From the NCBI GenBank assembly GCA_021209335.1, contig JAJOIN010000031.1:1-58011 (forward strand): a stretch of 58,011 nucleotides of DNA, written 5' to 3'. The DNA is from Aeromonadaceae bacterium (lineage in GTDB: Bacteria > Pseudomonadota > Gammaproteobacteria > Enterobacterales > Aeromonadaceae). The stretch's first letter is position 1. Each line of letters begins with the position of its first letter. The position numbers and the translations under genes were made by a program. The notes under the pieces are model-generated. The model searched no databases, was not told the DNA's origin, and saw only the letters and a list, made by a program, of their open reading frames with translations. This document shows, piece by piece, positions 12,052 to 12,190 of this stretch.

Positions 12052-12098
12052 TTTGGCGCCCAGGGCCGCCAGGGCGCCCCAAAGTGCAGCTGTTGCAC
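12052..12098. promoter_or_regulatory. Inverted repeats upstream of the sigma-54 promoter, candidate activator sites
   Basis: Two nearby dyads lie 68 to 115 bp before the expected transcription start. The first has GGCGCCC (12055-12061) facing GGGCGCC (12072-12078), with outer TTTGG/CCAAA arms. The second has GTGCA (12084-12088) facing TGCAC (12094-12098). Enhancer-binding proteins that work with sigma-54 usually bind dyads at about this distance. Neither is a proper NtrC site, so the activator is unknown. Confidence 0.4.
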
Positions 12099-12139
12099 CA
12101 AAAGCACCCAGACTACCCCCTGCTAGCCCCCACAGGCGC

Positions 12140-12154
12140 TGGCACACTCCTTGC
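12140..12154 (+). promoter_or_regulatory. Sigma-54 (RpoN) promoter of the Anbu operon
   Basis: TGGCACACTCCTTGC carries the -24 GG and -12 GC dinucleotides exactly 10 bp apart, and matches the TGGCAC-N5-TTGC consensus at all ten defined bases. The predicted start is near 12166, 25 bp before the first gene, whose ribosome site AAAGGAG follows. Confidence 0.8.
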
Positions 12155-12190
12155 GATACCGGCTTATCTGCTGTGGTAAAGGAGTAGCCC

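Follow-up and report, generated by a model that had tools for sequence, protein, structure and literature searches.

The window, a stretch of 58,011 nucleotides from an Aeromonadaceae bacterium whose assembly measures 2.18 Mb and is 65.8% complete, carries the four genes of an Anbu operon on one strand, in the order ATP-grasp, Alpha-E, transglutaminase and Anbu, as read from Pfam matches and translations. A divergent neighbour, tadA, closes the spacer on its other side:

11473..11976, minus strand: tadA (tRNA adenosine deaminase), divergent neighbour at the edge of the spacer; Pfam deaminase matches
12179..12184, plus strand: Shine-Dalgarno AAGGAG, 6 nt 5' of the ATG, read from the sequence
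12191..13627, plus strand: circularly permuted ATP-grasp protein, gene 1 of the operon; Pfam PF14403, 1.3e-166
13621..14550, plus strand: Alpha-E protein; Pfam PF04168, 1.3e-93
14550..15347, plus strand: transglutaminase-like protein; Pfam PF01841 and PF08379
15369..16109, plus strand: Anbu, proteasome-family subunit; Pfam PF00227, 1.2e-8

Because the operon genes overlap or lie no more than 21 nt apart, one would expect them to share a single promoter, 5' of 12191. From tadA to the ATP-grasp gene the spacer measures 214 nt, with a GC content of 64%, the start of tadA being taken as 11976 from its resemblance to TadA, and a consensus scan found no terminator within it. Of the 36 tested genomes with the ATP-grasp gene, 35 also encode an Anbu orthologue.

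Within the spacer lies a sigma-54 promoter element, from which a transcription start may be predicted:

12140..12154, plus strand: sigma-54 (-24/-12) promoter element TGGCACACTCCTTGC; 10 of 10 core bases, conserved in position and sequence
12166, plus strand: predicted transcription start, 12 nt past the -12 GC by the usual sigma-54 geometry

The GG of TGGCACACTCCTTGC occupies 12141-12142 and its GC 12153-12154, giving GG-N10-GC, and all ten bases of the core TGGCAC-N5-TTGC are present. An earlier note on this DNA had claimed this spacing together with every consensus base, which is correct for the ten-base core but not for the longer published consensus TGGCACG-N4-TTGCW, from which the element differs twice (A for G at position 7, and G after TTGC). 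The GC lies 36 nt from the ATG at 12191, and a start at 12166 would leave the 25 nt to the ATG that the note had given. The genome encodes RpoN (PF04552, 1.9e-72). The pattern alone is not rare, with 0.34 occurrences expected by chance in the 58-kb window and TGGCAY-N5-TTGC occurring 28 times across the 2.18-Mb assembly; the weight of the element rests on its place and its conservation.

To follow the element through evolution I compared 98 loci, each with a relative of this ATP-grasp gene, drawn from the Aeromonadaceae, Enterobacterales, Pseudomonas, Burkholderiales and Neisseriales and including Aeromonas, a sister genus, Yersinia, Rahnella, Serratia, Erwinia, Pantoea, Klebsiella, Pectobacterium, Dickeya, Pseudomonas, Vogesella, Roseateles and others. 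Of these 98, which are not independent since many are closely related to one another, 88 score 9/10 or better with the invariant GG-N10-GC on the coding strand in the last 110 nt ahead of the ATP-grasp gene, whereas the opposite strand and eight slices taken elsewhere yield 0-2 of 98. In Aeromonas, a sister genus, Yersinia, Rahnella, Serratia, Klebsiella, Pectobacterium, Pseudomonas, Vogesella and others the element sits about 35-60 nt 5' of the start codon. Alignment of the Aeromonadaceae shows a spacer that has mostly diverged around an unchanged element, and such strict retention of the -24/-12 bases implies selection on them. Conservation in relatives, which the earlier note had proposed as a check, very strongly supports the assignment as a sigma-54 promoter.

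When sampling was extended across the phylum, a 9/10 match within 160 nt was found in 8 of 18 loci from the same class (control slices, 0) and 11 of 39 from other classes (control slices, 1). Conservation weakens once ATP-grasp identity drops below about 65%, many such lineages lacking the element, and this type of promoter marks a closer group, at roughly 70% identity and above, rather than every Anbu operon.

Several individual loci depart from the common arrangement. In one (L007) GT replaces GC at -12 (TGGCATAACCTTTGT) and a normal element is absent, and the gene of Vogesella urethralis (L083) lacks a clear element nearby. Paralogous ATP-grasp genes (52-57% identity; L013, L018-L020, L036 and L037) have sigma-54-like elements farther upstream. 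Another locus (L014) contains, at about 1200-1500 in the orientation stored, a short tandem repeat of GTTGTCTTCTGAACTGGAATT-like units next to the ATP-grasp match.

Two inverted repeats upstream of the element had been proposed as lying at activator distance:

12055-12061 and 12072-12078, no strand: dyad GGCGCCC-N10-GGGCGCC; chance level in shuffles, probably not functional as such
12084-12088 and 12094-12098, no strand: dyad GTGCA-N5-TGCAC; chance level in shuffles, probably not functional as such

Both exist, but as activator sites I reject them, being at chance level and unconserved in relatives: the observed count of inverted repeats is reached in a fraction of 0.62 of shuffles for arms of 5 and 0.25 for arms of 7. 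GTGCA-N5-TGCAC, whose conservation the note had suggested looking for, occurs in five places in the organism's own genome and not once across the related upstream regions; nor does it qualify as an NtrC operator, as its half-sites are wrongly oriented and their spacing is 5 rather than 7. The operator that is conserved in the relatives is instead an NtrC-type site, in another register.

This site emerged when the enterobacterial NtrC consensus, TGCACCA-N3-TGGTGCA, was used as a query against the 170 nt preceding the element in 44 genus-level representatives, with expectations taken from dinucleotide shuffles. Sites matching at least 11/14 were found in 27 of the 44 representatives (0.5 expected), sites of at least 12/14 in 14 (0.04 expected), and Erwinia rhapontici has a perfect one. 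Second sites in the relatives cluster 29-34 bp from the first, and of the six Aeromonadaceae relatives listed, five show a spacing of 33 bp; the pairs are similar to the tandem NtrC sites of E. coli glnAp2, which lie about three helical turns apart. The alignment revealed no shared operator other than the NtrC type. The organism itself encodes NtrC (TIGR01818, 777 bits against a cut-off of 558.6) and ntrB, as well as at least four further AAA+ proteins resembling sigma-54 activators. In its glnA promoter (L154) a 12/14 NtrC site lies 72 nt 5' of a sigma-54 element, so the canonical motif is in use in this organism.

In the window the matches are poorer. A position weight matrix (PWM) built from the NtrC sites of the relatives picked the following as the best two:

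12044..12060, no strand: weak NtrC-like site TGCCTCGGTTTGGCGCC; 9/14, PWM 7.2 bits, alone p ~0.1
12075..12091, no strand: weak NtrC-like site CGCCCCAAAGTGCAGCT; 9/14, PWM 5.7 bits

These partly overlap the dyads, in a different register. Their centres precede the first base of the sigma-54 element by 88 nt (TGCCTCGGTTTGGCGCC) and 57 nt (CGCCCCAAAGTGCAGCT) and lie 31 bp from each other, a tandem with p ~0.004 by shuffles and 0 of 355 window slices, for a spacing range set after inspection. No single NtrC site in the window's spacer rises above chance (best 9/14, p ~0.1), none of at least 10/14 occurs in 11400-12190, the inside of tadA included, and I was unable to identify an IHF consensus between activator and promoter. 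NtrC control at this operon is therefore likely by descent, with the window's own sequence giving it weak support.

Among the closest known systems is P. putida PP_2688-PP_2685, an orthologous operon with the same four genes as the window, for which induction by nitrogen limitation has been demonstrated. Expression of PP_2685-2688 rises when nitrogen is limiting (PMC3325844, PMC7801951), DNA from upstream of PP_2688 raises a reporter 3.7-fold on nitrogen depletion, and the mRNA is about 16-fold higher on nitrate than on ammonium (both PMC8050072). Relatives in Pseudomonas have TGGCAC-N5-TTGC and, about 60 nt 5' of it, an NtrC-like site, whereas the window has weak NtrC-like sites only. The organism's own glnA, a promoter of the glnAp2 type, resembles the Anbu promoter in joining a -24/-12 element to upstream NtrC sites, although its site scores 12/14 and nothing at the Anbu operon exceeds 9/14. 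A transglutaminase-domain cluster of B. cenocepacia, I35_5080-83, is NtrC- and sigma-54-dependent (PMC5491218); it has transglutaminase-domain genes in common with the Anbu operon, in a probably paralogous arrangement.

The earlier note's suggestion of a tie to nitrogen status accordingly gains from the NtrC-type operators of relatives and from expression in P. putida (PMC8050072, PMC7801951, PMC3325844), but it is not new: a nitrogen link of Anbu has been in print since 2008 (Hervas and others, as relayed by PMC5666114 and PMC6376114). A search thin on subscription journals found no paper that treats Anbu and NtrC together, and the main text of a Yersinia RpoN mapping paper does not mention the operon. 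On the whole, the observation made in the earlier note is confirmed in part, for its element and not for its dyads, and its interpretation has partial support.

That the four-gene Anbu operon has a sigma-54 promoter is, from these comparisons, almost certain, and given such a promoter NtrC is probably its activator here. Sigma-54 RNA polymerase would form a closed complex at 12140-12154; when nitrogen is limiting, NtrB would phosphorylate NtrC, and phosphorylated NtrC, bound upstream, would use its ATPase to open the complex, so that transcription would begin near 12166. In most relatives NtrC would act from one good site, often joined by a weaker second about 30 bp away (three helical turns), and in this genome from the tandem of weak sites, 12044-12060 and 12075-12091. 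I infer the activity of the promoter here, its start site and the part of NtrC in this species from sequence. The whole reading, a sigma-54 promoter that with NtrC drives the Anbu operon under nitrogen limitation, is likely, although one transcriptome of a P. putida rpoN mutant (PMC7801951), in which induction persisted, conflicts with it.

What else might explain the element? A chance match could appeal to the abundance of the pattern in the assembly and the window, but the recurrence of the element at a matching distance in 88 of 98 relatives (controls, 0-2) refutes it in practice, and I regard this possibility as negligible. A mainly constitutive promoter of the sigma-70 type, to which the sigma-54 element adds little, would fit the moderate, constitutive expression also described for Anbu (PMC5666114), and in a P. 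putida rpoN mutant PP_2686-2688 were still induced 14-20-fold under nitrogen limitation (PMC7801951), behaviour shared in that mutant by urtABCD, which the same study assigns to NtrB/NtrC. However, a consensus scan of low sensitivity detected no sigma-70-type promoter in the spacer, and the selection implied by strictly kept -24/-12 bases in diverged spacers makes this account improbable.

The choice of activator leaves somewhat more room. In this species a sigma-54 promoter might have lost its NtrC sites and answer to another enhancer-binding protein, for some signal that is not nitrogen; the spacer lacks a canonical NtrC site though glnA of the same genome has one, and at least four other candidate activators are encoded. 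Yet NtrC-type sites occur in relatives on all sides, the alignment offers no different shared operator, and the window retains a weak NtrC-like tandem at the right spacing, all of which render such a switch unlikely, if less so than a sigma-70 promoter.

Returning to NtrC and nitrogen limitation, it is reasonably probable that membership of the Anbu operon in the Ntr regulon is conserved in Beta- and Gammaproteobacteria. On this reading a sigma-54 promoter with NtrC sites, often in tandem, has been retained across dozens of genera whose spacers otherwise diverged, and Anbu and its partners would serve as a nitrogen-starvation device, for example to salvage nitrogen from protein or amide groups, and not as a general stress protease. 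Anbu belongs to the proteasome family and has been proposed to resemble its ancestral form, with no substrate or activity known. Conserved sigma-54/NtrC control points to nitrogen starvation as the condition under which to study it, makes its function testable in ordinary laboratory strains, and raises the prospect that earlier missing phenotypes may reflect nitrogen-rich media. As far as the literature could be searched, what is new is the breadth of conservation, the kind of promoter and the nitrogen link in P. putida being already known; the link published for that species now appears general.

Within the family the operon is patchy, as a close ATP-grasp relative (E 1e-150 or better) was found in just 15 of 67 good Aeromonadaceae genomes. 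In the window, the operon and tadA lie inside a phosphate locus (window 5394-19332), flanked by pstS-phoR-phoB and, on the opposite side, by ppk-ppx and a pstC-like gene, the pst and pho names being read from translations. The ppx gene (window 9996-11497) loses its frame near 11170-11190: the Pfam domain III match covers 1-90 of 177 and the remainder lies in a different frame, a break that may be an assembly error.
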